Source: Candidatus Krumholzibacteriia bacterium (GTDB lineage: Bacteria; Krumholzibacteriota; Krumholzibacteriia; JAJRXK01). Taken from it: 33,401 bases of DNA. This document shows, in pieces, positions 1,434 to 17,513 of the stretch. Where the stretch lies: assembly GCA_035268685.1 (NCBI GenBank), contig DATFKK010000010.1:1-33401 (forward strand), given 5' to 3'. The notes below the pieces were generated by a model. The model made no database searches and had not been told where the DNA came from. It was given only the letters and a program-made list of their open reading frames with translations. The position numbers and the translations under genes were made by a program. Position 1 is the first letter of the stretch. Every line of letters starts with the position of its first letter.

Positions 1434-4400
1434 CTAGGCCCGAGCCTGCCCGCGCAACTGGTGGATCCCGATGTACGCGGTCGGGATCACCACCAGCGTG
1501 ATCAGCGTCGACACGGTCAGCCCCCCGATCACCGCGCGGGCCAGCGAAGCCTGGATCTCCCCGCCGGCACCGCCGCCGATCGCCAGCGGCAGCATGCCGA
1601 GCAGCGTGGTCAGCGTGGTCATCAGGATCGGCCGCAGGCGCAGCCGCGCCGCTTCGAGCACGGCGTCACGCACGCCCAGCTCCTGTTCACGGCGCATCAG
1701 GTTGATGTAGTCGACCAGCACGATCGCGTTGTTCACCACGATCCCGATCAACATGACGATGCCCATCAGGCTCTGCACGTTCAGCGAGGTGCCCGTCAAC
1801 AGCAGCGTGGGCACCACCCCGACCAACGCCATCGGCACCGACAACATGACGATGAGCGGATCGAGGAAGCGCTCGAACTGCGCGGCCATGACCATGTAGA
1901 TCAGGATCACGGCCATGGCGATCGACAGCAGGAAGTCGCGTCGGGCCTCCTGCTGCTCCTCGTACTCGCCGCCGTAGAGGATCGAGAAGCCCGAGGGTAG
2001 GGTCATGTCGCGCAGGCGGCCGCGCAGGTCCTCGATCACGTTGCCCAGAGCCGCGCCGCTCTCCAGGTTGGCGGTGATGTAGGTCACGCGCTGGCCATCG
2101 ACACGATCGATGTCGGTGGGACTGCGCCGGCGTTCGGTCTCGACCACGCTGGACACCGGCATGGTCTGGCCGTTCGCGCTGCGCACGGACACGTTGGCCA
2201 GATCCTGGGTGGTGAGGCGGTCCTCGGCCTGCAAGCGCACGGTGATGGGGAATTCCTCGCCGCCCTCGCGGAACACACCCGCGCGGCCGCCGCCCACGTT
2301 GGTCTGCACGATCTCGGCGATCTCGCGCACCGACATGCCCAGGTTGGCCACCTTGTCACGGTCGATGATCAGGTTCTGCTCGGGACGCCCCTCGCGTCGA
2401 CTCACGCGCGCGTCGGCGACCTCGGGGATGCCCTGCATGACCTGCACGATGTCCTTCGCGATGCGGTCGGCCAGCTCGAGGTCGTAGCCGCGCAGCTCGA
2501 GCTGGACGGCCGAGCCGTCCCCCGAACCGAACAGGCGGCGCAGCATCCACAGGCCGGACTGCGCGCGCACGCGGATGTCGGCGCCGGGGATCCGTCCCTG
2601 CACCCGACGGCGGATCTCGTCGGCGATCAGGTAGCTGTCGGTGTCGCGCTCGTCTGCGCCGAGCAGGGCGAGTTCCACCTCGGCGTCGCCGGGGCGGATC
2701 TCGATCGTCATGTTCTTCACCTGGTCCATGGGCGTGGCCTCCTGCACCAGGCGTTCGAGTTCGTGCAGGTACTCGTTGACCACGGCGATGTTCGTGCCCT
2801 GGGCCATCTCGAGCTCGACGTCGATCTCGTCGGCGTCGGTCTGTGGGGCCAGCTCCACCGGGAGCAACGGCCACAGGTAGATCGCGCCGGCGAGCAGGGC
2901 CAGGGTCAGGCCGAAGACCACGATCTTGTGGCGCACCACGTGCTGCATGCCGCCCGCGTAGGCGTTCTCCACACGGTTGAACCACGCGCCCACCCGCCGG
3001 TGCCGCACGGCCTGCGCGCCCACGGTGCCGGTGGCGCCTACGGTGAGCATGCGGCTCGACAGCATGGGCACCAGGGTCAGCGCCACGAGCAGCGAACACA
3101 GCAGCGCGAAGACCACCACCAGGGCCAGCTCGCGGAAGAGCATGCCCGAGATGGTCTGCATGAAGAGAACGGGCAGGAAGATCACCGACGTGGTGAGTGT
3201 CGACGCGATGATCGCGCCCGACACCTGTCTGGTTCCCACCAGCGCGCTCTCGTCGAGCGGTCGCCCGCGCTCGCGCTGGCGCACGATGTTCTCGAGCACC
3301 ACGATCGCGTTGTCGACGATCAGTCCGATTCCCAGCGCCAGGCCGCCGAAGCTCATCTGGTTCAGCGTGAGCCCGTTGAAGTACAGCAGTGCGAAGGTGG
3401 CGATCAGCGAGATCGGAATGGACAGGGCGATGATGAACGTGGTCGATCCGTTGCGCAGGAACACGTACAGCACCAGGATCGCGAGCAGTCCGCCCCACAG
3501 GGCCGCCTTCTGCACGTTGTCGATCGAGTTCTGGATGAAGTCGCTCTGGTCGATGATCATCATCAACTCGATGTCGTCGCGCTCGGCATTGATGCGTTGC
3601 ATCACCTCACGCGCCTCGGCGGCCACCGCCACGGTGTTCGCGCCCGACTGCTTGCGCACGCCCATGCGCACCATGGGCCGGCCGTCGATCTGCACCAGGC
3701 GCGAGACGTCCTCGTAGCCGTCGACCACCTCGGCCACGTCGCGCACGCGGATGGGCCGGCCGTCGACCATGGTGACGATGGTGTCGGCGATCTGGTCGAG
3801 CGACTGGAATTCGCCCTGCGTGCGCACGTACATGTCGCGCAGGCCCTCGCGCATGTCTCCGCCCGGCAGGGTGACGTTCTCGCGCCGCAGGGCCTCCTGC
3901 ACGTCGGCCGCGGTCAGCCGGCTCGAGGCCAGACGATCGCGCTTCAGGCGGATCTGGATCTCGCGGTACACGCCGCCCCAGATGTCCACCGAGCCGGCGC
4001 CGGGGATCTGTTCGAAGCGCTGGGCGATCTCGCGCTCGAGGATTCGCGTGAGTTCCTCCATGTCGCGCTCGGAACGCGCGCCCAGGACCACCACGGGGAA
4101 GTTGTCGGGGTCGAACTTCCACAATCGCGGCGATTCGACCTCGGGCGGCAGGTCGTCGCGGATCCGGTCGAGCGCGGCGCGGACGTCGTTGGCCGCAGCG
4201 TCGACGTTCGTCCCCTGCGTGAACTCCAGGGTCACGCGGCTGCGCCCCTCCGACGAGCCCGAACGGATCTCCTCGACGTTCGGCACACCGGCCAGGGCGT
4301 TCTCGACCTCATCGGTGATGATCCGCTCGATCTCCTCGGGGCCCACGTTCGGATAGTTTGTGGCCACGGTGAGCTGCGGGTACTCGATGGGCGGCAGCAG

Positions 4401-4505
4401 GTCGACGGGCAGGAAGCGGAAGCCCATGACGCCCAGCACGATCACGATCAGGAACACCATGGCGGTGGCGATCGGGCGGCGGACGGCGGTCTGGGTGATC
4501 TGCAT
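1434..4505 (-). CDS. RND-family efflux transporter, HAE1/AcrB-like inner membrane pump
   Basis: 1023 residues, full length for an HAE1-type RND pump. Such pumps use the proton gradient to expel hydrophobic compounds from the inner membrane and periplasm through an adaptor and an outer-membrane channel. The N-terminus (TAVRRPIATAM, then a TM helix, then FLPVDLLPPIEYPQL) is typical. Two large periplasmic loops and two sets of five TM helices follow. TM4 has GIGLIVDNAIVVLENI near residue 397: the first proton-relay Asp is kept and the second is Asn, as in many HAE1 pumps outside the AcrB group. TM10 carries VVNNAIVLVDY. GAGAGG precedes the ATG at a good distance. It starts 18 bases after the adaptor gene, so the two form an operon. 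No TolC-like gene is in the window. Substrate unknown. Confidence 0.93.
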   Translation of the reverse strand: MQITQTAVRRPIATAMVFLIVIVLGVMGFRFLPVDLLPPIEYPQLTVATNYPNVGPEEIERIITDEVENALAGVPNVEEIRSGSSEGRSRVTLEFTQGTNVDAAANDVRAALDRIRDDLPPEVESPRLWKFDPDNFPVVVLGARSERDMEELTRILEREIAQRFEQIPGAGSVDIWGGVYREIQIRLKRDRLASSRLTAADVQEALRRENVTLPGGDMREGLRDMYVRTQGEFQSLDQIADTIVTMVDGRPIRVRDVAEVVDGYEDVSRLVQIDGRPMVRMGVRKQSGANTVAVAAEAREVMQRINAERDDIELMMIIDQSDFIQNSIDNVQKAALWGGLLAILVLYVFLRNGSTTFIIALSIPISLIATFALLYFNGLTLNQMSFGGLALGIGLIVDNAIVVLENIVRQRERGRPLDESALVGTRQVSGAIIASTLTTSVIFLPVLFMQTISGMLFRELALVVVFALLCSLLVALTLVPMLSSRMLTVGATGTVGAQAVRHRRVGAWFNRVENAYAGGMQHVVRHKIVVFGLTLALLAGAIYLWPLLPVELAPQTDADEIDVELEMAQGTNIAVVNEYLHELERLVQEATPMDQVKNMTIEIRPGDAEVELALLGADERDTDSYLIADEIRRRVQGRIPGADIRVRAQSGLWMLRRLFGSGDGSAVQLELRGYDLELADRIAKDIVQVMQGIPEVADARVSRREGRPEQNLIIDRDKVANLGMSVREIAEIVQTNVGGGRAGVFREGGEEFPITVRLQAEDRLTTQDLANVSVRSANGQTMPVSSVVETERRRSPTDIDRVDGQRVTYITANLESGAALGNVIEDLRGRLRDMTLPSGFSILYGGEYEEQQEARRDFLLSIAMAVILIYMVMAAQFERFLDPLIVMLSVPMALVGVVPTLLLTGTSLNVQSLMGIVMLIGIVVNNAIVLVDYINLMRREQELGVRDAVLEAARLRLRPILMTTLTTLLGMLPLAIGGGAGGEIQASLARAVIGGLTVSTLITLVVIPTAYIGIHQLRGQARA

Positions 4506-4523
4506 CGATTCGCCTCTCCGCGC

Positions 4524-5834
4524 TCAGTCCGACGCCGTGCGCTCGATGACCTCACGCATGAGGTCCTCGCGCTGCAGGCGTTGCAGGTGTTCCACGCGCT
4601 CCCAGCGGATCGGCCGCACGCGGGCCTCGGGGCTCTCGCCGTCGAGCAGGTTCTGCCCCATGGTCACCACCCACTGGCCCGGCTCGATGCCCGGGATGGC
4701 GGCCTCCATGTGGCCCTCGGCGATCGGAGGCGTCGGGACGAACTCGAAGGCGACCGGCTCGCTCAGCGGACCGGGACGCTCGATGCCCATCTCGTCGACG
4801 GGCACCTCGCCGAAGTCGTGGCCGGTGACGTAGACGCCCACGTTGCCGGTGGTGGGGTCCTCGTACAGGGCGCTGATCGGCACCAGGGTGGCCTGCTCGC
4901 TCTCGCCGTAGTGGATGTCGACGGTCACGAACATGCCGGGCTTGAGGCGGCGATCGGCATTGGGCATGTCGATCTCGGCCTCGGTGCTGTGCGCCACCGG
5001 GTGCAGGAAGGGCGAGATGCGCGACAGGCGGGCCTCGGCCGCCGCGTCGCCCACACGGACCACCGCGCGCTGGCCCTCTTCGATGTAGGCGAGCATGCGG
5101 TCGGTCAGCATGACCTGCACGCGCACGCTGTCGAGCTGGCCGATGGTGAACACCTGCGTGTTCGGGTTCACCAGCATGCCGACCTCGACCTCGCGGCTGC
5201 CGACCACGCCGGTGATGGGGGCGCGGATCACCGTCCGGGCGAGATTCTCCGCGGCCTCCTCGGCCATCGCCAGGGCCTGTTCGACCCGGGCCTCGGCGAG
5301 GGCGACCTCGGCCTCGGCCGACGCGGCGCGGGCCTCCACGGTCTCGAGTTCGGCCTGGCTGCCGAGTTCGCGTTCGTCGAGCGAGCGGGCTCGCTCGAGG
5401 GCCGAGCGCGCCTCCCGGACCTGGGCTTCCGCGCGCTGCAACTGCGCGAGAGCGATCCGGTGGTCGGCCCGCGCCTGCTTCAGGCGCTCGCGGACGTCGG
5501 TGTCGCGGATCCGCACCAGTGGCTGCCCGGCCTCGACCTCGTCGCCGTTCTGGACGAGGACGGCGGTCACCACCCCCGTGATCTCGGGCTGGATCGACAC
5601 CTGGTTGCGGGCCTCGACCACCCCGCTCAGCCGCTGCGTCAGGGGCAGCGAGCCGTGGCGGGCCTCGACGGCCTCGACGGAGGGATACACGCGCGGCGGG
5701 GCTTCCTCGGAGGAAGTTCCATCACCACAAGCGCTTACGAAGACGAGGAGGAGGCCCAGCACGGCCCCTCGGATCGTGGACGAGATGGCGAGGTCCTTCT
5801 TGCAAAGGGGGATTGATTGTTCCAACAATGACAT
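4524..5834 (-). CDS. RND efflux periplasmic adaptor (HlyD/AcrA-type) lipoprotein
   Basis: 436 residues from the ATG at 5834. The frame stays open upstream, but there it overlaps the ATP-grasp gene and has no family resemblance. The N-terminus has a hydrophobic run ending VSAC, a lipobox with Cys36. The AcrA order follows: a lipoyl-like half (SGVVEARNQVSIQPEITG), a long Glu/Ala/Arg-rich coiled-coil hairpin (about residues 105-180), the second lipoyl half (VIRAPITGVVGSREV), then beta-barrel and membrane-proximal domains (LKPGMFVTV). It bridges the pump at 1434-4505 to an outer-membrane channel. The ribosome site before ATG 5834 is weak and the region before the hydrophobic core is long (about 22 residues), so a start further in is possible. 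It diverges from the ATP-grasp gene with a gap of 57 bases. Confidence 0.9.
   Translation of the reverse strand: MSLLEQSIPLCKKDLAISSTIRGAVLGLLLVFVSACGDGTSSEEAPPRVYPSVEAVEARHGSLPLTQRLSGVVEARNQVSIQPEITGVVTAVLVQNGDEVEAGQPLVRIRDTDVRERLKQARADHRIALAQLQRAEAQVREARSALERARSLDERELGSQAELETVEARAASAEAEVALAEARVEQALAMAEEAAENLARTVIRAPITGVVGSREVEVGMLVNPNTQVFTIGQLDSVRVQVMLTDRMLAYIEEGQRAVVRVGDAAAEARLSRISPFLHPVAHSTEAEIDMPNADRRLKPGMFVTVDIHYGESEQATLVPISALYEDPTTGNVGVYVTGHDFGEVPVDEMGIERPGPLSEPVAFEFVPTPPIAEGHMEAAIPGIEPGQWVVTMGQNLLDGESPEARVRPIRWERVEHLQRLQREDLMREVIERTASD
5816..5829. promoter_or_regulatory. Dyad at the start of the adaptor gene, possible operator
   Basis: ATTGTTCCAACAAT is a perfect inverted repeat of 6-base arms around CC. 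It falls on codons 2-7 of the adaptor gene as annotated. It is AT-rich in a GC-rich setting and lies beside the divergent intergenic region at 5835-5891, which also holds TCGAACG twice. RND pump operons are often controlled by a TetR- or MarR-type repressor binding such dyads, but no repressor gene is nearby. Confidence 0.25.
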
Positions 5835-5891
5835 CGAACGTTTCGAACGGCCACCCGGCCTGGATGCCGCCGCTCCGAGAGGACTCCGATC

Positions 5892-6770
5892 GTGCCCCGT
5901 GTCGCCTACCTGAGCATGGATCGCCTGGACGGTTTCTTCGTCTACGACGCCCTCACCCACGAGCCCCTGGCCGCGCGGGGGATCGAGGTCGAGACGATCC
6001 CGTGGCGCCGTCCGGACGTGGACTGGGATCGCTTCGACGCCGTGGTCATCCGGTCGACCTGGGACTACCAGGACGATCCGGAGGCCTTCCTCGCCTCGCT
6101 GCGGCGGATCGACGCATCGGGGGCCGAGCTGTTCAACCCGCTCGAGGCGGTGCGCTGGAACCTCGACAAACACTACCTGCGCGATCTCCGCGAGGCCGGA
6201 GTGGCCGTGGTCGACACGCGTTTCGTCACCTCTCCGGGCGAAACCGACCTCGACCGGGCCTTCCGCAGATTCGGCACGACGGAGATCGTCGTCAAACCGA
6301 CGGTGAGTGCCAACGCCGACCACACGTACCGTGTCCACGTCGACGACGCGTCCGCGATGCGGGCGGTGACCGCAGCCCTGCGCGGCCGCGACGCCATGAT
6401 CCAGCCCTTCCTGCCCGCCATCGCGACCGAAGGGGAGTTCTCGCTCTTCTACTTCGACGACGCCTACAGCCACTCGGTCCTCAAGACCCCGGTCGAGGGG
6501 GACTTCCGGGTGCAGGAGGAGCACGGTGGGCGCTTGGCCGCGGTCGAGCCCGAGCCCGCCCTGCGCGCCGCCGCCGATCGGGCACGGACCGCCCTGCCCG
6601 GCGATCTGCTCTACGCGCGCGTCGACTTCGTGCGCACCGGCGGCGGCTTCGAACTCATGGAGGCCGAGCTGATCGAGCCCTCGCTCTACTTCGAACTCGA
6701 CGAACGATCCGCCGGACGGTTCGCGGCGGCTCTCGCGCGGCGGATCGGCGGCACGTCGTCAGCGCCCTAG
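5892..6770 (+). CDS. ATP-grasp ligase, RimK/glutathione-synthetase-like (DcsG-like)
   Basis: 292 residues from ATG 5892. ATP-grasp enzymes activate a carboxylate as acyl phosphate and join it to an amine or thiol. The N-terminal pre-ATP-grasp domain (about 1-100) contains VVIRSTWDYQDD. The central part has the ATP-binding lysine segment (EIVVKPTVSANADHTYRV) and IQPFLPAIATEGEFSLFYF. The end has ARVDFVRTGGGFELMEAELIEPSLYF, where the metal-binding acidic residues sit. This matches a family of soluble ATP-grasp proteins that includes DcsG of D-cycloserine synthesis, but there are no other biosynthetic genes here, so the substrate is unknown. Its stop overlaps the stop of the convergent gene at 6767-7270 by 3 bases. 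Confidence 0.8.
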   Translation: MPRVAYLSMDRLDGFFVYDALTHEPLAARGIEVETIPWRRPDVDWDRFDAVVIRSTWDYQDDPEAFLASLRRIDASGAELFNPLEAVRWNLDKHYLRDLREAGVAVVDTRFVTSPGETDLDRAFRRFGTTEIVVKPTVSANADHTYRVHVDDASAMRAVTAALRGRDAMIQPFLPAIATEGEFSLFYFDDAYSHSVLKTPVEGDFRVQEEHGGRLAAVEPEPALRAAADRARTALPGDLLYARVDFVRTGGGFELMEAELIEPSLYFELDERSAGRFAAALARRIGGTSSAP

Positions 6771-9563: not shown

Positions 9564-10592
9564 TCAGGGCGTGGCGGGGCGACGGATCGCGCCCAGGACG
9601 TGGCGTACCAGCAATTCGTCGAGCGTGCGGGTCATGCGTCCGCGTCCGCCGGGGCCGAGATCGGCGGTGGTCACCACCACCAGGCCGGGTTCGGGCAACA
9701 CGAAGATCCGTTGCCCGCCGTGACCCCAGGCGTAGTGCACCGGAGTCCCCGCGATGCGTCGGTACCACCAGAAGTAACCGTAGCCGAAGCCGTTCCAGTG
9801 CGAGCGTGTCCGCGGACGCCAGGCCCGTTCGACCCAGCCGGTGGGGAGCACGCGCCGTCCGTCGTACTCTCCGCGGGCCAGGTGCAGCCGCCCGAAGCGG
9901 AGCATCTGTCGCGGTGTCATCGACAGGTTGTTGCCCCCGAAGTCGTGTCCCTGGGGATCGCGGTCCCAGTGGACGCCCTGCACCCCGATCGGTCCGAACA
10001 GATGGCGGGCCGCGTACACGCTCGGTCGCACGCCGGTCGCGCGTTCGAGGATCACGCTCACCAGGTGCGAGGCACCCGTGCTGTAGCGCATCGTCGTGCC
10101 GGGTTCGAACTCCATGGGCATGCGCAGTTGACCGCGCACCCAGTCCGAGCCGGCGACCCAGGCGCCGTAGTTGTAGAAGCTCGTGGTCTCGAGTCCGCTG
10201 CGCATGGTCAGCAGGTCCTCGAGCGTGATGCGCGCGCGGGGGTCGTCCTCGAGCAGGTCGGAGTGTTCGGGGAACCACCGCGCGACGGGTGTGTCGAGCG
10301 GCGGAAGGTCGCCCCGGTCGAGCGCGATTCCCACCAGGGCGGCGAGCACGCTCTTCGACACCGACTTCACGTTCTCGACGCGGTCCGGGCCGCCGCCACG
10401 CCAGTAGCCCTCGGCCAGCACCGAGTCGCGATCGGCGATCACGATCGAGGTCAGCGGCGGATGATCGTTCCCGAAACGCAGCGCCGACGAGAAGTCGACG
10501 TGGCGTGGATCGGTCCACACGTCCACCGTGGGCGCGGCGGAAGCGGGCGCTGCGGTGAGCGCGAGCAAGAGGACGGTGGTGACGAGGCGCAA
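9564..10592 (-). CDS. Exported serine hydrolase, class C beta-lactamase/penicillin-binding-protein fold
   Basis: 342 residues from TTG 10592. No ATG or GTG lies at a suitable place, and the TTG gives an ideal signal peptide (MRLVTTVLLLALTAAPASA). Motifs of the SxxK hydrolases are in order: SVSK (S77-K80, the nucleophile and base), YST (Y170-T172, in place of YxN) and HGG (291-293, in place of KTG). This pattern is typical of the esterase EstB/'beta-lactamase-related' group, which act on D-amino acid peptides, esters or peptidoglycan fragments. True beta-lactamase action is unlikely to be its role. It acts in the periplasm or outside. It is the first gene of the minus-strand run with the acyltransferase (64 bases further on). 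Confidence 0.85.
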   Translation of the reverse strand: MRLVTTVLLLALTAAPASAAPTVDVWTDPRHVDFSSALRFGNDHPPLTSIVIADRDSVLAEGYWRGGGPDRVENVKSVSKSVLAALVGIALDRGDLPPLDTPVARWFPEHSDLLEDDPRARITLEDLLTMRSGLETTSFYNYGAWVAGSDWVRGQLRMPMEFEPGTTMRYSTGASHLVSVILERATGVRPSVYAARHLFGPIGVQGVHWDRDPQGHDFGGNNLSMTPRQMLRFGRLHLARGEYDGRRVLPTGWVERAWRPRTRSHWNGFGYGYFWWYRRIAGTPVHYAWGHGGQRIFVLPEPGLVVVTTADLGPGGRGRMTRTLDELLVRHVLGAIRRPATP

Positions 10593-10662: not shown

Positions 10663-11547
10663 TCAGTCGGTCTCGCCGGAGACGAGATCGGTGACGGTCC
10701 GCTCGATCGCCGACAGCTCGGTCCAGAGTTGCGACAGGGCGATGGTCCCGTCCTGGTCGATCACGAAGGCCGCGTTGGGCGCGGTACCGTAGGTGCACCA
10801 CACGGGGTTCGTGATGGGGTCGGGCGGGGCGGAGTCGATCAGCATGAGCGGATCGTTCGCCATCTGGTTGAGGATTCGCTGGGCGTGGGACCGGCGTTCG
10901 GACCAGGTGTAGGCCTGACCGACGTCGCCGTAGGCGGTGCCGGTGCCGTCGGGGAGCTCGTCGTCGGTCCAGCGGGCGTAGGGCGTGGGGTCGGGCAGGG
11001 CCGGGTGCGCCTCGATCGTGTACACGTGGACGATGTGCACGGCTTCGTCGAAGCGGCGGCCGTCGGGGAGTTCGCGCATTGCGAACTGGTCGAGCTCGGG
11101 CACGCGAGCCATGTAGATCGGTCAGGTGAAACTGCCGAGCACGAGGAGCACGGGCCGTTCGTCCAGGAGTGTGGCGAGTGAGCGTTCCTCTCCCGCCATG
11201 TCGCGGAGGGTGAAGTCGACGGCCGGCTCGCCACTCCGACGGAAGATCTGGATCTCGGCCGCGTTGCCGCGTCCGAAGTCGCGCTCGGGCCAACCGAACG
11301 ATCCCTCGGTGAGATGCGTTTCGTCGAGAAGGTTCTCGGGCCACTCGGTGGTCGGATCCTCGCTGCCCGGATCCTGCGGGTCGTCGGGCAGGGATGGGTC
11401 GTCGTCACCGCCGGGATCCTCGGTCACGGGAGGATCCGTCGTGGTCGTGTCGGGGCCCGTCGGGTCGTCACTCGAACAACCCGCGAGCCAGATCATCGAA
11501 CACAGGAGCAGGATGGCAGCGGTGCGGACGGTTGCCGCGGTGTGCAT
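10663..11547 (-). CDS. Iodothyronine-deiodinase-like selenoprotein, lipoprotein (in-frame TGA read as Sec)
   Basis: 294 residues if TGA at 11124-11122 is read as selenocysteine (Sec142). The ATG at 11547 gives a lipoprotein signal ending LAGC (Cys24), followed by an acidic Pro/Thr/Asp linker (25-70) and a thioredoxin-fold domain. The active site reads LVLGSFT-U-PIYMARVPEL. Vertebrate deiodinases have the same pattern (FGSCT-U-PPF), and later family features follow past the TGA: VYTIEAHP, the HAQRILNQM helix and YGTAPNAAFVIDQDGTI near the end. A SECIS-like hairpin follows the TGA (separate entry). Known deiodinases remove iodine from thyronines; bacterial relatives are of unknown substrate, and a peroxiredoxin-like or dehalogenating role at the membrane surface is inference. 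The upstream sigma-54 activator on the same strand, 186 bases away, may regulate it. Confidence 0.88.
11094..11109 (-). other. Bacterial SECIS-like hairpin of the deiodinase-like gene
   Basis: On the minus strand GCTCG (11109-11105) pairs with CGAGC (11098-11094) around the loop CGTGCC; an outer G-U pair can extend it to 6 bp. The loop begins 17 bases after the TGA and has G as its second base. Published rules for bacterial SECIS elements ask for an apical loop 16-37 bases from UGA, a stem of at least 4 bp and a G among the first two loop bases, so all are met. The hairpin lies inside coding sequence, as in bacterial fdhF, and would bind SelB with Sec-tRNA. Confidence 0.7.
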
Positions 11548-11733
11548 ACGGTCGGGAGCCTTTCGTTCGTCGTCTTCGTCGTCCCCATTGTTGACTACGA
11601 ACGAAACCGACCTCGACAACAGTGTGATTCGGTGAGACGACCACCCGCTCGTCCCACGAGGTCGCGAGCGCGCGATGGTGCGACGTTCCACACCGTGGTG
11701 CGTGTTCCTACGAAGGCATGAGGGAATTCCGCA

Positions 11734-12678
11734 TCATTCCTGCGCCTCGTGCTCTGCCTCGTCGAGCCGATAACGGCGGATCTTCGTCTGCAGGGTGCGT
11801 CGGCCGATTCCGAGCGCGACCGCGGCACGCGTGCGGTTGCCGCCGAAGTACCTCAGTGCGCGCGCGATCGCGACACGTTCGGCGGTTTCGAGGGTCATGA
11901 CCGTGTGGTCTCCTTGGTGGGGGGAACTCGGGAGCAGACGGTCGAGGTGCCGTGGCAGGATCACCGGTGCGTCGAACACCACCAGTCGTTCGGCGAGATT
12001 GCGGAGCTCGCGCACGTTGCCCGGCCAGTCGTGGGACAGCAGTCGCGTGATCGTGGCATCGGCCAGCGTCGGGGGTCGAACGGCCAGACGCAGAGCAGCC
12101 CGGCCGAGGAAGAAGCCGAGCAGAGCGGGAAGATCCTCCAGGTGCTCACGCAGAGGGGGGACCTCGATGGTCAGGACTTCCAGGCGATAGTAGAGATCTG
12201 CACGGAAGTGGCGCTCGGACACCCGCTCTTCGAGCGGTTGGTTGGTGGCGGCCAGCAACCGGGCACGGTTCCGTTGTGCGCGCGGCGATCCGACCCGATG
12301 GAAGGACTGGTTCTCGACGACGCGAAGGATCTTGGCCTGCAGGCCGAGATGCAGGTCTCCGATCTCGTCGAGCAGGAGCGTGCCTCCGGCCGCGGACTCG
12401 AAGAATCCTGCGTGGTCGGCGATCGCGCCGGTGAACGCGCCCCGCACGTGCCCGAAGAACTCGCTCTCCATGAGTTCGCTGGGCACGGCTGCACAGTTGG
12501 CCACGACGAAGGGTCCGGTCCGGCGGGCCGACTGGCGGTGGATGGCCCGCGCGATCAGTTCCTTGCCCGATCCCGTCTCACCGCGCACGAGGACGTTGAC
12601 GTCGGTGCGGGCTGCGTCGCGCACCTGTCGCATGACGCGGGCGAGGCCGCGATCGGCACCGATGATCTCGGGGTCCAC
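11734..12678 (-). CDS. Sigma-54-dependent transcriptional activator (AAA+ and Fis-type HTH, no receiver)
   Basis: 314 residues from GTG 12678, which has GGAG 8 bases upstream. The open frame extends to 13056, but the added 126 residues are Pro/Arg/Cys-rich without family resemblance. The AAA+ domain has Walker A GETGSGKE (33-40), the sigma-54 contact loop GAFTGA (80-85), Walker B LLLDEIGD (101-108) and the arginine segment FRADLYYRL. A short C-terminal region ends in a Fis-type helix-turn-helix (RAAVALGIGRRTLQTKIRR, about 285-303). It uses ATP hydrolysis to open sigma-54 RNA polymerase promoters. With no N-terminal receiver or sensor domain, its activity may be set by abundance or a partner protein. 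Candidate -24/-12 promoters are seen at 15359-15373 and 25887-25901; a link to this regulator is untested. Confidence 0.9.
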   Translation of the reverse strand: MDPEIIGADRGLARVMRQVRDAARTDVNVLVRGETGSGKELIARAIHRQSARRTGPFVVANCAAVPSELMESEFFGHVRGAFTGAIADHAGFFESAAGGTLLLDEIGDLHLGLQAKILRVVENQSFHRVGSPRAQRNRARLLAATNQPLEERVSERHFRADLYYRLEVLTIEVPPLREHLEDLPALLGFFLGRAALRLAVRPPTLADATITRLLSHDWPGNVRELRNLAERLVVFDAPVILPRHLDRLLPSSPHQGDHTVMTLETAERVAIARALRYFGGNRTRAAVALGIGRRTLQTKIRRYRLDEAEHEAQE

Positions 12679-13007
12679 GACACAGGCTCCGATCCGCCCC
12701 GCACGATCCGAAGAAACCCCCAGGGCGTGCCGGCGCAACGGTACGTCTGCACCACGGATCGTCGTGGTCGACCGCGCAGCAAGAACGCATCGATGCGCAG
12801 GAAGTGCGCACCGGGCCGTCACGGAGGGGGCACCGGGGAGGCGGACCCATTGTGCGCACACGACATGTGGAACGCGGCCGCGCGGGCACTCGATCGGGCA
12901 CGGCCGATGCCGTGGAGTCGGGGTCCCCGCGTCCGGTGCCGAGGGCCTCGTCTTCCACTGGTCCCAGACATCGCCGATGGTACCGGACCCCATTCGAGGA
13001 GCGCCCG

Positions 13008-14087
13008 ATGTCCACACAAGGATTCCGGATCCGCGGGATCGTTCCGGGGCGGACACGCCCGGTGCTGGCCGCGGTTCTGACGACCGTTCTCTGCTTCTTG
13101 ATCCACACCGGTGCCGATGCGTCCCTGCGCCGGTTGCACGTCGTGTGGGAGGACACCTTCGTCGACACCAGCGCCCGTGGCTGGGAGCTCGAGTCCTACA
13201 CCCGTGGCGACATGATGGTCGTCACCGACGATCCCGGCGATGCCGTCAAGGTGGCCGGCGACGGCTACTTCCTGCGAGGAGAAAGCCCGAGCCACGACAA
13301 CGGGGCCGGATTCCGTGCGACGTCGCCCACCTTCGACCAGATGGGTGTCGACATCGACGAACCCTACTCGATCCACTTCGAGTATCTCCTACCCTGGCAG
13401 GAGGCGTGCTGGACCTACGCCCTGGCTTCGAACCACGTGTCGCTGGTGGTCGCCACCTGCGACGTCGCGGCCGAACGGGGCTGGCTCGTTGCCGTCGACG
13501 AGTTGGCGGGAACGGAGGTGCCGCTGGGTCCGATCACGCTGGGTGCGTGGCACGCGATCGACGTGCTCGTCGAGCCCCGTCCCCTGCACCTGGGGGATGG
13601 CGTCGCCGACCTGACCGTTCGGGTCGACGGCGCGGTCGTGGGCCGGGTGCGGCGTCGAGAGAACATGGGATTCGATCGTCTGGTCTTCCAGGACCTGCCG
13701 GCGCGCATCGCCGACGCCACCGACCCTCCCGCGCTGTCCGGCTGCTTCGGCGGCGGCTGCTGGGACGACGTCCGTCTGTCGGTGCAGGTTCCGGCCGAAG
13801 GGTCCGAGCCCCGTGATCTGAACTTCCGCATGGAACCCAACCCCTTCAACCCCGTCACCACGCTTCGCTTCGAACTGCCGGAAGCCCTGCACGTGCGTGC
13901 GGTCGTCTATGCCCTGAACGGACGGCGCGTGGGAACGGTGTTCGAGGGATGGCTCCCCGTCGGGCCGCAGGTTCTGCCTTGGGACGGCACCGACTCCGAC
14001 GGTCGCGCGATCGCCAGCGGGACCTACTTCGTGCGGGTGCACGCCGGTGATCACGTCGTGGTCCAGCGGGCCTCCGTGGTCCGCTGA
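13008..14087 (+). CDS. Secreted beta-sandwich protein with C-terminal FlgD/T9SS-type sorting domain
   Basis: 359 residues from ATG 13008, with GAGGAG about 8 bases upstream. A basic n-region and hydrophobic core (about 13-37, ending GADA) form the signal peptide. The middle (about 40-265) looks like a concanavalin/LamG-type beta sandwich: 'WEDTFVDTSARGWEL' opens it and a late 'ADLTVRVDGAVVGRVRR' resembles strands of such domains that wrap ligands or other proteins. The last 85 or so residues (MEPNPFNPVTTLRFELP to ASVVR) are the sorting module found in three other genes here. It diverges from the sigma-54 activator with a 329-base gap. A strong hairpin follows its stop. A surface binding role is likely; the ligand is unknown. 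Confidence 0.72.
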   Translation: MSTQGFRIRGIVPGRTRPVLAAVLTTVLCFLIHTGADASLRRLHVVWEDTFVDTSARGWELESYTRGDMMVVTDDPGDAVKVAGDGYFLRGESPSHDNGAGFRATSPTFDQMGVDIDEPYSIHFEYLLPWQEACWTYALASNHVSLVVATCDVAAERGWLVAVDELAGTEVPLGPITLGAWHAIDVLVEPRPLHLGDGVADLTVRVDGAVVGRVRRRENMGFDRLVFQDLPARIADATDPPALSGCFGGGCWDDVRLSVQVPAEGSEPRDLNFRMEPNPFNPVTTLRFELPEALHVRAVVYALNGRRVGTVFEGWLPVGPQVLPWDGTDSDGRAIASGTYFVRVHAGDHVVVQRASVVR

Positions 14088-14225: not shown

Positions 14226-14238
14226 TACACTTCTGCGA
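14226..14238 (+). promoter_or_regulatory. -10 element placing the pheA transcript start at its ATG
   Basis: TACACT at 14226-14231 ends six bases before the ATG at 14238. A -10 box at this distance would start transcription at or next to the A of the ATG, giving a leaderless mRNA. This fits the lack of any purine-rich ribosome site in front of the gene. No good -35 is visible. Confidence 0.35.
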
Positions 14239-15338
14239 TGAACGACGACCGCGACCGCAAGACCGACCTCGGAGGCATCCGCGAACGCATCGATTCGATC
14301 GACGCGCGGATCCACGAACTGATCGCCGAACGTGCCCGTCTGGCCCAGCACGTGGGCGTGACAAAGCGCGAAGAGGGCACCGTGGCCTTCTTCCGGCCCG
14401 AGCGCGAGGCCCAGGTGCTCCGCGCCGTCGTCGAGCGCAACCGGGGACCGTTGACCGACCAGGAGATGGTCCGTCTCTTCCGCGAGATCATGTCGGCCTG
14501 TCTGTCCCAACAGGAACCGTTGAAGGTCGGATTCCTCGGCCCCGACGGCACCTTCTCGCACCAGGCCGTGCTCGAGCACTTCGGGCACTCCTGCCGCGCG
14601 TTGCCCATGGCCACGCTCGACGAGGTCTTCGGGGCGGTGCAGAGCGACGACGCCGACTTCGGAGTGGTGCCGATCGAGAACAGCGCGGCCGGCGTCGTGA
14701 GCCACACGCTCGACCTTTTCCTGGGGTCGCCGCTGAACATCTGCGGCGAGGTCCACATGCGCATCCGTCAGCATCTGATGGGTGCCATGGAACGCCTCGA
14801 CGAGATCCGGCGCATCTGCGCCCACCCGCAGTCACTGGCCCAGTGCCGGGCCTGGTTGCGGCAGCACCTTCCCGATGTCGAGCTCGAGCAGGCGAGCAGC
14901 AACGCGGCCGGGGCACGCCGCGCCCGTGACGAGAGCGGGACCGCGGCCATCGCACCGGCTGCCGCGGCCGAGATCTACGGGCTGCGTGTCCTGTTCGACT
15001 CGATCGAGGACGAGAGCGACAACACCACGCGCTTCCTCGTCGTGGGACGGGATCTTCTCGAGCCGAGCGGCGCGGATCGCACCACGCTGCTGCTGAGCGG
15101 TGCCGAGACCGACCAGAGCGGGTCGCTGCACTCGCTGCTCGAGCCCCTGGCGCGTCACGGCGTGAACATGACCCGGATCGAGTCGCGTCCCTCGCGCCGC
15201 CGGTCCTGGCACTACGTGTTCTTCCTGGATCTCGACGGTCATGCCTCGGACCCGCCGGTGGCCGCTGCCCTCGCCGAGCTCGAGGAGCGCGCCGACCTGT
15301 TCCGGGTCCTGGGCGCCTACCCCAGGGCCGTCCTCTGA
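14238..15338 (+). CDS. pheA: Bifunctional chorismate mutase / prephenate dehydratase (P-protein)
   Basis: 366 residues, the usual length. It converts chorismate to prephenate and then to phenylpyruvate, the precursor of phenylalanine, in the cytosol. Residues 11-90 are the AroQ helical chorismate mutase (IRERIDSIDARIHELIAERARLA, with FFRPEREAQVL). The dehydratase domain starts at about 95 (KVGFLGPDGTFSHQA) and has GVVPIENSAAGVV, the AHPQSLAQCRAWL helix and the catalytic TRF motif (NTTRFLVV, about 266). The C-terminal ACT domain (about 278-366) carries IESRPSRRRSWHYVFFLD, the site of phenylalanine feedback binding. It stands alone, with no other aromatic genes in the window. Confidence 0.96.
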   Translation: MNDDRDRKTDLGGIRERIDSIDARIHELIAERARLAQHVGVTKREEGTVAFFRPEREAQVLRAVVERNRGPLTDQEMVRLFREIMSACLSQQEPLKVGFLGPDGTFSHQAVLEHFGHSCRALPMATLDEVFGAVQSDDADFGVVPIENSAAGVVSHTLDLFLGSPLNICGEVHMRIRQHLMGAMERLDEIRRICAHPQSLAQCRAWLRQHLPDVELEQASSNAAGARRARDESGTAAIAPAAAAEIYGLRVLFDSIEDESDNTTRFLVVGRDLLEPSGADRTTLLLSGAETDQSGSLHSLLEPLARHGVNMTRIESRPSRRRSWHYVFFLDLDGHASDPPVAAALAELEERADLFRVLGAYPRAVL

Positions 15339-15358
15339 TCGACCGCCGGCCGTGGGCC

Positions 15359-15375
15359 TGGTGTGCGCCTTGCAA
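15359..15375 (+). promoter_or_regulatory. Sigma-54-like -24/-12 promoter upstream of the hybrid histidine kinase
   Basis: TGGTGT, five bases, then TTGCAA. GG (15360-15361) and GC (15372-15373) are exactly ten bases apart, as sigma-54 needs, and the -12 half is a perfect TTGCA. The -24 half differs from TGGCAC at three weaker positions. It lies in the 108-base gap between pheA and the kinase, placing a start site near 15385 and a leader of about 60 bases. Confidence 0.35.
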
Positions 15376-15446
15376 ACGCCTCTCTTCCGAAGTCACGATC
15401 GGTGCGCGGGCTCCCCGCACACGGGTGTACGAGCGGGATCGGCGGC

Positions 15447-17513
15447 ATGGCCCTCCATTTTCCACGGTACGATTTCACCCCCCACCGCGGCAGCATGTTC
15501 CTGCTCGCGGCGTTCGTCGCGGTGGTCGGGCTCGACCTGTCCGGTGCCCTGGGCTCCGAGTCCGGGGTCGTGTCGACCTTCGCGTCGTCGATGCTGCGTC
15601 TGGCCACCGTCGTCCTGCTCGTGCGGGGCTATCGGGGATTCCGTGACGGCCGATTCCTGTTGCTGGCCGGGGTCTTCCTGCTGGCCGGTCTCCGGCAGTT
15701 CCTCAGCGGGATGTACCGGACCGGGCTCGAGATCCCCGGCTTCGGCGCGCTCGGGCCGGAGATCCCCGGATACCTGGTGTCGATCCTCGGCCTGCTGGCC
15801 GCGGTCCATCTGGTCGAGGTGTACCGCGCCGCGCGCGAACGCGAGGAATTCCAGCGCCGCCTCGAGGTCGAGAACGAGCGCTACCGGGGGATGTTCGAGG
15901 ACAACACCGCGGTGAAGCTGCTGATCGATCCCGACGACGGTCGGATCGTCGACGCCAACGGTGCGGCGGCGGAGTTCTACGGCTGGAGTCGCGACGAACT
16001 GCTCCGCCTGCACATCCAGCAGGTCAATTGTCTGGCGCCGGCACAGGTCGAGGCCGAGATGCGGCGGGCGCGTGCATCGGGGCAGCATTGCTTCGAATTC
16101 CGCCACCGTCGGGCCGACGGCTCGATCCGCGACGTCGAGGTGCATTCGAGTCCGCTGCGTGTCGACGGGCGAGACCTGCTCTTCTCCATCGTGTTCGACG
16201 TGACGACCCGCAACGAAGCCGAGGCGGCCAACCGCCGGCTGATCGCGGCCTTCGAGGAACAGTCGCGCATGCTGGCCGCCGCTCGCACCGACGCCGACCG
16301 TGCCAACGTCAACAAGAGCGCGTTCCTGGCGAACATGAGCCACGAGATCCGGACGCCGATGACGGCGGTCCTGGGCTTCGCCGAAGCACTCGAGGATCCC
16401 GAACTCGAGGAATCGGAACGACGCGAAGCCGTCGCCACCATCCTCGACAGCGGCAACTACCTGCTCGAACTCGTCAACCAGATCCTCGACCTGGCCAAGG
16501 TCGAGTCCGGCAAGATCGAGATCGAACGGCACCCGATCGACATGGTGGCCTTCCTGCGCGGTCTGCGCGGACTGCTCGCCGGTCGCGCCCAGGACGCGGG
16601 CCTGGATCTGGACGTCGTGAGCGCCTCGCCCGTTCCGGAGCGGCTCACGGGGGACGAACTCAAGATCCGCCAGATCCTCGTCAACCTGCTGGCCAATGCG
16701 ATCAAGTTCACCGAAGACGGAGGCGTGGTCCTGCGCGTTTCCTTCGACGAGGCGACGGAGTCCGTGGTCTTCGAGGTCGAGGACACCGGCCCCGGGATGA
16801 GACCGGCGGAGCTCGAGTGCGTGTTCGAGCCCTTCGAGCAGGCGTCGAGCGGGAAGAAGGGTGGCGGAACCGGCCTGGGCCTGCCGATCTCGCGTCGTTT
16901 CGCCGAGGCCATGGGCGGAACGCTGCACGTGGACAGCACACCCGGGCAGGGATCGGTCTTCACCCTGACCCTGCCCGTGGTGCTCGAGGAGGGTGGGGAT
17001 CGGTTGGAGTCGGGCTGGACGCTGGACACCGGTCCCCCGTTGGTCGAGACGACCGATCCCGCCGACCGGACCGATCCCGCCGAGCCAGCCGTCGCCGACT
17101 CCGTCGAGGCCCACGTTCTGGTCGCCGACGACGTGGTGGCGAACCAGATGCTCGTCCGCCGTCTTCTGGAGCGTGCCGGTGCGCGGGTCGTGACGGTGAG
17201 TGACGGCCAGCAGGCGATCGACGCGGTCCGCGACGCGCATGGCCGCGACGATGGTTTCGACGTGGTCCTGATGGACGTCCAGATGCCTCGCATGGATGGC
17301 CTGGCCGCCACCGCGGTCCTCCGCGACGAGTTCCCCGCGCTGCCCGTCCTGGGTCTGACCGCGGGGGTGACCACCGCCGAGCGCGAAGCCCTCGAGGCGG
17401 CGGGAATGCGCGAGTGGTTGTCGAAACCGTTGCAGCGCGGGGAGTTGGTCGAGCGCGTGTGGTCGTGGACCACGACCGCGGACGCCTCGACCGACACGAT
17501 CGACAGCGCCTGA
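15447..17513 (+). CDS. Membrane hybrid sensor histidine kinase (4 TM, PAS, HisKA, HATPase, receiver)
   Basis: 688 residues from ATG 15447 (GTG 15363 is an alternative with no ribosome site). Four hydrophobic segments (about 15-32, 45-60, 67-83, 105-125) form a small membrane domain without a large external sensor loop. A coiled linker and a PAS domain follow (about 140-255; 'YRGMFEDNTAVKLLIDPDDG'). The HisKA box has SHEIRTPM with phospho-acceptor His299. The ATPase has N417 (N box), DTGPG and GTGLGLPIS. A linker rich in Asp/Pro/Thr leads to a receiver with Asp610 (LMDVQMP) and Lys (LSKP). It autophosphorylates and passes phosphate to its receiver, and probably to an HPt or response regulator elsewhere, since none is adjacent. 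The intramembrane or PAS-bound signal is unknown. Confidence 0.93.
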   Translation: MALHFPRYDFTPHRGSMFLLAAFVAVVGLDLSGALGSESGVVSTFASSMLRLATVVLLVRGYRGFRDGRFLLLAGVFLLAGLRQFLSGMYRTGLEIPGFGALGPEIPGYLVSILGLLAAVHLVEVYRAAREREEFQRRLEVENERYRGMFEDNTAVKLLIDPDDGRIVDANGAAAEFYGWSRDELLRLHIQQVNCLAPAQVEAEMRRARASGQHCFEFRHRRADGSIRDVEVHSSPLRVDGRDLLFSIVFDVTTRNEAEAANRRLIAAFEEQSRMLAAARTDADRANVNKSAFLANMSHEIRTPMTAVLGFAEALEDPELEESERREAVATILDSGNYLLELVNQILDLAKVESGKIEIERHPIDMVAFLRGLRGLLAGRAQDAGLDLDVVSASPVPERLTGDELKIRQILVNLLANAIKFTEDGGVVLRVSFDEATESVVFEVEDTGPGMRPAELECVFEPFEQASSGKKGGGTGLGLPISRRFAEAMGGTLHVDSTPGQGSVFTLTLPVVLEEGGDRLESGWTLDTGPPLVETTDPADRTDPAEPAVADSVEAHVLVADDVVANQMLVRRLLERAGARVVTVSDGQQAIDAVRDAHGRDDGFDVVLMDVQMPRMDGLAATAVLRDEFPALPVLGLTAGVTTAEREALEAAGMREWLSKPLQRGELVERVWSWTTTADASTDTIDSA

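Follow-up and report, generated by a model that had tools for sequence, protein, structure and literature searches.

A predicted deiodinase-like selenoprotein from a lipoprotein branch of the family in a Candidatus Krumholzibacteriia genome

A 2005 study of the Sargasso Sea described bacterial deiodinase-like selenoproteins, in both selenocysteine (Sec) and Cys forms, and, as no thyroid hormone would be expected in that setting, proposed a redox role for them (PMC1088965). They reappeared in later surveys, including GOS (PMC2398784) and the listing in a 2026 review (PMC13188914), in agreement with an earlier note on the DNA analyzed here, which had taken such proteins to be known already from surveys. 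In the literature searched, these selenoproteins have been predicted for two decades and carry no assigned substrate. For the animal enzymes, the active-site and loop-anchor network of Dio3, comprising Ser167, Thr169, Sec170, Tyr197, Glu200 and His202, has been described (PMC7506546, PMC11592359), as have the roles of Dio3 His219 and Arg275 in thyroxine binding (PMC7506546). Our search for papers on selenoproteins and Krumholzibacteriota found none on the two subjects together; with the shorter name stem, one ecogenomics paper was retrieved that mentions each of them once.

Here we describe a new member of this family, known since 2005, which belongs to a little-described lipoprotein branch. 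The window, that is, the whole stretch of 33,401 nucleotides that was analyzed, is contig 10 of a 4.59 Mb assembly in 202 contigs. The sequence makes it very probable that the gene encodes a deiodinase-like selenoprotein with Sec at position 142. Its features, and the adjacent genes, are as follows.

10663..11547, minus strand: predicted deiodinase-like selenoprotein gene, 294 residues with Sec142 (frame reading, paralogue, alignment)
11476..11547, minus strand: signal peptide with lipobox LAGC, Cys24 predicted to be lipidated (sequence reading; N-terminal helix of residues 2-22 in the model)
11254..11475, minus strand: acidic, Pro-rich disordered linker and N-terminal extension, residues 25-98 (D/E/P-rich; pLDDT mostly <50)
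10666..11253, minus strand: predicted thioredoxin-fold deiodinase-like domain, residues 99-294 (S139, T141, U142, Y176, E179, H181, R218, C251)
11122..11124, minus strand: in-frame TGA, predicted selenocysteine codon 142, GSFT-U-P (same TGA in the paralogue and 15 more distant homologues; Cys in the Krumholzibacteriota relative G003)
11093..11110, minus strand: SECIS-like hairpin GGCUCG-CGUGCC-CGAGCU (position and synonymous recoding; identical in the paralogue)
11734..13056, minus strand: upstream neighbour, sigma-54-dependent activator
9564..10592, minus strand: downstream neighbour, beta-lactamase-family serine hydrolase

A search of PDB sequences with a profile of nine family members yielded, as the best matches by far, mouse Dio3 (1.2e-24) and then Dio2 (3.4e-20). 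The PF00837 search proposed in the earlier note gave a mixed outcome: the single sequence scored 18.7 bits, below the gathering score of 27, whereas the family profile recovered Dio3. At an E-value of 0.001, the PF00837 profile matched nothing in the source genome or in any control genome, so its silence in the source genome carries no information. The NF038285 (deiodinase_rel) model matched residues 106-270, across the Sec site, with 57.7 bits and an E-value of 1.3e-15, below its curated cut-off of 250. Because both single-sequence scores fall under the cut-offs, it is the family profile, the fold and the active site that place the protein in this family. In the AlphaFold2 model, the core has pLDDT values mostly of 80-97 and the linker is disordered; the top PDB fold match of this model is mouse Dio2 (9H48; E-value 2.9e-8, TM 0.71 by target length), with ResA and peroxiredoxins ranking behind it by E-value, which suggests a deiodinase-type thioredoxin fold. 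The residues S139, T141, U142, Y176, E179 and H181 are the counterparts of Dio3 Ser167, Thr169, Sec170, Tyr197, Glu200 and His202, so that the Ser-x-Thr-Sec-Pro site (with P143) and the Tyr-x-x-Glu-x-His network are both present. The Tyr, Glu and His of the latter are invariant over the family, and their spacing is identical in Dio2 and Dio3. Profile, fold and active-site residues together uphold the deiodinase relationship claimed in the earlier note.

The profile search of 387 genomes detected members of the deiodinase-like family in 16. Most members have TGA at the catalytic site; Cys occurs there in two genes, and Ser and Asp in one gene each. Ten genomes besides the source have TGA at this position. 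The UGA of the window gene thus lies where homologues have Cys or Sec, and the alignment of homologues proposed in the earlier note showed Sec or Cys at the site in frames that read on, none of which ends there. The Cys form, GSFSCG, occurs in a Candidatus Krumholzibacteriota MAG of the same family as the source genome (G003). An alignment-based search of genome contigs gave a sole match, the Krumholzibacteriota MAG OFTM315 (JAJDAC010000058.1); a single-protein scan of the genome contigs gave no match, and no relatives were found among the viral contigs searched. The gene is absent from a genus mate of the source genome (G001) and is, therefore, dispensable. Elsewhere in the family, the forms in which Ser or Asp replaces the catalytic Sec retain the Y-x-x-E-x-H motif (G241 and G255; L080, L084). 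Two genomes carry three or more deiodinase-like genes each (G219: L079, L090, L091, L092; G085: L058, L038, L059), and in G219 two of these genes adjoin, one lacking the TGA and the other encoding GSSTUTMY.

In the phylogenetic tree, the window gene, its paralogue (see below), the Cys form of G003 and a gene of G085 (G085:C288) form one group (94/94; four rows of the full tree), and the animal deiodinase pair is placed apart from this branch. Members of the branch share extra loops and a Cys in the motif WCTYG (C251) that the other members in the alignment lack. In the window protein, C251 is the only non-Sec cysteine of the mature domain and hence a candidate resolving thiol.

A lipobox of the pattern [LVI][ASTVI][GAS]C can be read in both copies of the gene in the source genome (LAGC), and is less perfect in the relatives from G003 and G085. 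Together with the D/E/P-rich composition of the linker, it agrees with the earlier description of a lipoprotein with a long acidic linker. The lipobox makes the action at the outer face of a membrane suggested in that description plausible, and would agree just as well with an anchor that faces the periplasm.

The neighbourhood of the gene offers no functional lead: in the five genomic contexts examined, we found no common partner gene or functional theme. The genes in the vicinity of relatives code for an amidohydrolase, a FolE2-like protein, SelB, an ABC transporter and two-component systems. In the Krumholzibacteriota MAG, selB and the gene for the Cys-form relative meet tail to tail and directly abut (L037:4860-7646; G003:C58). 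Elsewhere in the window, a gene for an RND-type (AcrB family) transporter adjoins one for an HlyD/CusB-like adaptor (1434-6524), and a chorismate mutase/prephenate dehydratase gene adjoins a PAS hybrid histidine kinase gene (14238-17513).

The protein is probably an extracytoplasmic thiol-dependent reductase. After export, it would be anchored by lipidated Cys24, with the catalytic domain held on the acidic tether, as the lipobox and linker suggest. The Sec142 selenolate, embedded in the hydrogen-bond network Ser139-Thr141-Tyr176-Glu179-His181 known from deiodinases, would attack an electrophilic small molecule, and the oxidized selenium would be returned by a thiol, the candidates being the branch-specific Cys251 or an outside reductant. 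The likeliest substrate would be an organic or inorganic peroxide (or another oxidant), with a halogenated aromatic less likely; for peroxide itself, we put the chance at slightly below even. The most specific version of this scheme, a distinct lipoprotein branch whose enzymes use selenium outside the cytoplasm to reduce an environmental substrate, either by dehalogenation or as a peroxide, with the invariant Cys251 as a built-in resolving thiol, is speculative and unlikely.

The same selenoprotein might instead catalyze reductive dehalogenation of iodinated or brominated aromatics other than thyroid hormones. In favour of this, the whole Ser-Thr-Sec/Tyr-Glu-His network of Dio2 and Dio3 is kept, with the Tyr, Glu and His unvarying among bacteria that lack thyroid hormone. 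However, the residues that hold thyroxine in Dio3 are lost: His219 is replaced by Ala212 (the His is kept in several other bacterial members), Arg275 by Trp275 (in an alignment extended by eye), and there is no Trp at the position of Trp207. Furthermore, no halogen-metabolism gene lies beside any member in the five genomic contexts examined, and the published proposal is of a general redox role (PMC1088965). We regard dehalogenation as possible, though rather unlikely; if it were the actual chemistry, removal of halogens at the deiodinase active site would be older than thyroid hormone. That the protein is an iodothyronine deiodinase proper, with thyroid hormones as substrates, is very improbable, although the animal deiodinases are its nearest solved relatives: the substrate-binding residues are missing, neither synthesis of thyroid hormone by bacteria of this phylum nor contact with it is known, and the animal pair lies apart from the branch in the tree. 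Lacking the thyroxine-binding pair His219 and Arg275, the window protein is, by its sequence, predicted to work like a deiodinase-fold selenoenzyme and not as an iodothyronine deiodinase.

The reading of the protein as a selenoenzyme requires that the TGA at codon 142 be translated. Between the ATG at 11547 and the terminal TGA at 10665-10663, the sole in-frame stop is the TGA at 11124-11122 (minus strand), and a plain ORF listing breaks the gene there into two (11122-11691 and 10663-11112), as the earlier note had anticipated for standard gene calling; standard annotation would list two unrelated hypothetical proteins. The two halves share one frame, free of any other internal stop. The context of codon 142 is GSFT-U-PIYM, which the alignment places at the catalytic Sec position of the deiodinase pattern, and translation beyond the TGA gives the deiodinase features VYTIEAHP and YGTAPNAAFVIDQDG that had been named beforehand. 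The third-position GC content is 0.81 in the half before the TGA and 0.92 in the half after it.

A second copy of the gene is located on contig 200 (24646-25533, minus strand). It shares 75% identity with the window gene, and its TGA occupies the same codon, in a nearly identical context of 80 bases. In the part after the TGA, comparison of the two copies gives dN of 0.16 and dS of 0.55; this part is under purifying selection and is, therefore, translated. Over the first 30 codons after the TGA, dN is 0 and dS only 0.17, compared with 0.55-1.0 elsewhere, a pattern that an RNA signal within the coding sequence would produce, with gene conversion as an alternative cause of the low dS; the count of identical codons over a similar stretch gave a p-value of only 0.065.

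The source genome encodes the complete Sec-decoding set that the earlier note had suggested looking for: selB (335.7 bits), selA (466.2 bits) and selD (324.9 bits), all exceeding the curated cut-offs, and selC, with a tRNA-Sec of 74.2 bits, above the Rfam gathering score, which ARAGORN also reports as tRNA-SeC with anticodon TCA (UCA). Each of the seven further genomes tested also has a tRNA-Sec above the cut-off (five of these genomes carry a TGA form of the gene; the match in G109 is weak). The selD gene of the source genome (G000:C87:29957-30889; L018) contains an in-frame TGA of its own, in the context SAAG-U-AAK and followed by a SECIS-like hairpin, so that SelD itself is a predicted selenoprotein. 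TGA also serves as an ordinary stop in this genome, where it terminates both copies of the gene. We considered a changed genetic code, with TGA read as Trp throughout, and rejected it because of these terminal TGA codons, the full Sec system, and the presence of Cys, not Trp, in relatives.

Just downstream of the TGA lies a hairpin that follows the bacterial SECIS rules, as claimed earlier, with the stem GGCUCG/CGAGCU starting 11 bases after the TGA rather than the 12 originally given. The 6-base loop, CGUGCC, begins 17 bases after the TGA, within the range of about 16-37 bases, and its second base is G, in keeping with the G expected among the first two loop bases. To evaluate this hairpin, we determined how often an equal or better one occurs at the same place among synonymous recodings of the same peptide. 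For the window gene, p is 0.0085; such a hairpin is found in 15 of the 17 TGA members (the exceptions being G133 and G273), and the Fisher combined p over the TGA members is 2e-12, a value that overstates independence because the members are related. In the negative control, none of the four members with Cys, Ser or Asp showed a significant hairpin by synonymous recoding (p 0.15 to 1.0). The hairpin is modest (-7.2 kcal/mol), matched no family in an Rfam search, and a generic fold of the stretch after the TGA shows no significant stability (z -1.6 to +0.3); the case for it thus rests on position and comparison. Because the stem register shifts by one to four bases among members, no claim of column-by-column covariation is made. 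The shared TGA of the paralogue, the third-position GC content, the NCBIfam match across the TGA and the hairpin (p about 0.009) place this site beyond chance. Decoding of UGA 142 as selenocysteine by SelB and tRNA-Sec at the hairpin just downstream is strongly supported in silico and would be the first step of the mechanism outlined above.

If the TGA were instead a real stop, the product would be a truncated 141-residue protein, or the gene would be decaying and the downstream frame a relic. Standard gene callers would end the gene there, and the terminal TGA demonstrates that TGA stops are used; against this, two independent copies have the TGA, the genome encodes all of the Sec machinery, purifying selection acts on the downstream half, whose third-position GC content is high, and relatives read through or have Cys, which renders a real stop scarcely credible. 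A sequencing or assembly error that turned TGC or TGT into TGA is conceivable in a draft of 202 contigs, and its probability is close to negligible because the TGA recurs in nearly the same context in the independent paralogue, which lies on another contig and differs from the window gene at other positions, both synonymous and amino-acid changing, and is found in distant homologues as well.

Whether the deiodinase site performs peroxide or halogen chemistry outside animals could be examined cleanly with this set, which comprises two copies in one genome, a natural Cys counterpart in a related bacterium and a compact lipoprotein branch. Compared with the known bacterial deiodinase-like selenoproteins (PF00837), the window protein has in common Sec or Cys at the catalytic site, a SECIS element just downstream, the thioredoxin fold and a host in which thyroid hormone is not expected; its branch differs in being predicted lipoproteins with an acidic linker, in U-P-I-Y instead of U-P-P-[FY], in additional loops, which follow helix 1 and lie within the deiodinase-specific insertion, and in the branch-specific Cys of WCTYG. 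With the NF038285 deiodinase_rel model, the first 178 model positions are unmatched by the window protein. The peroxiredoxin/AhpC-TSA and ResA/TlpA families share the general fold, and ResA/TlpA also the extracytoplasmic thiol-redox setting, whereas the window protein lacks CxxC and has the deiodinase Y-x-x-E-x-H motif. With mouse Dio3 (4TR3) and Dio2 (9H48), it shares the fold, the Sec position and the motifs G-S-x-T-U-P and Y-x-x-E-A-H-P. Unlike the animal deiodinases, it has no equivalents of Dio3 His219, Arg275 and Trp207, a predicted lipid anchor replaces their N-terminal transmembrane helix, and its bacterial SECIS element is in frame, whereas theirs is located in the 3' UTR.
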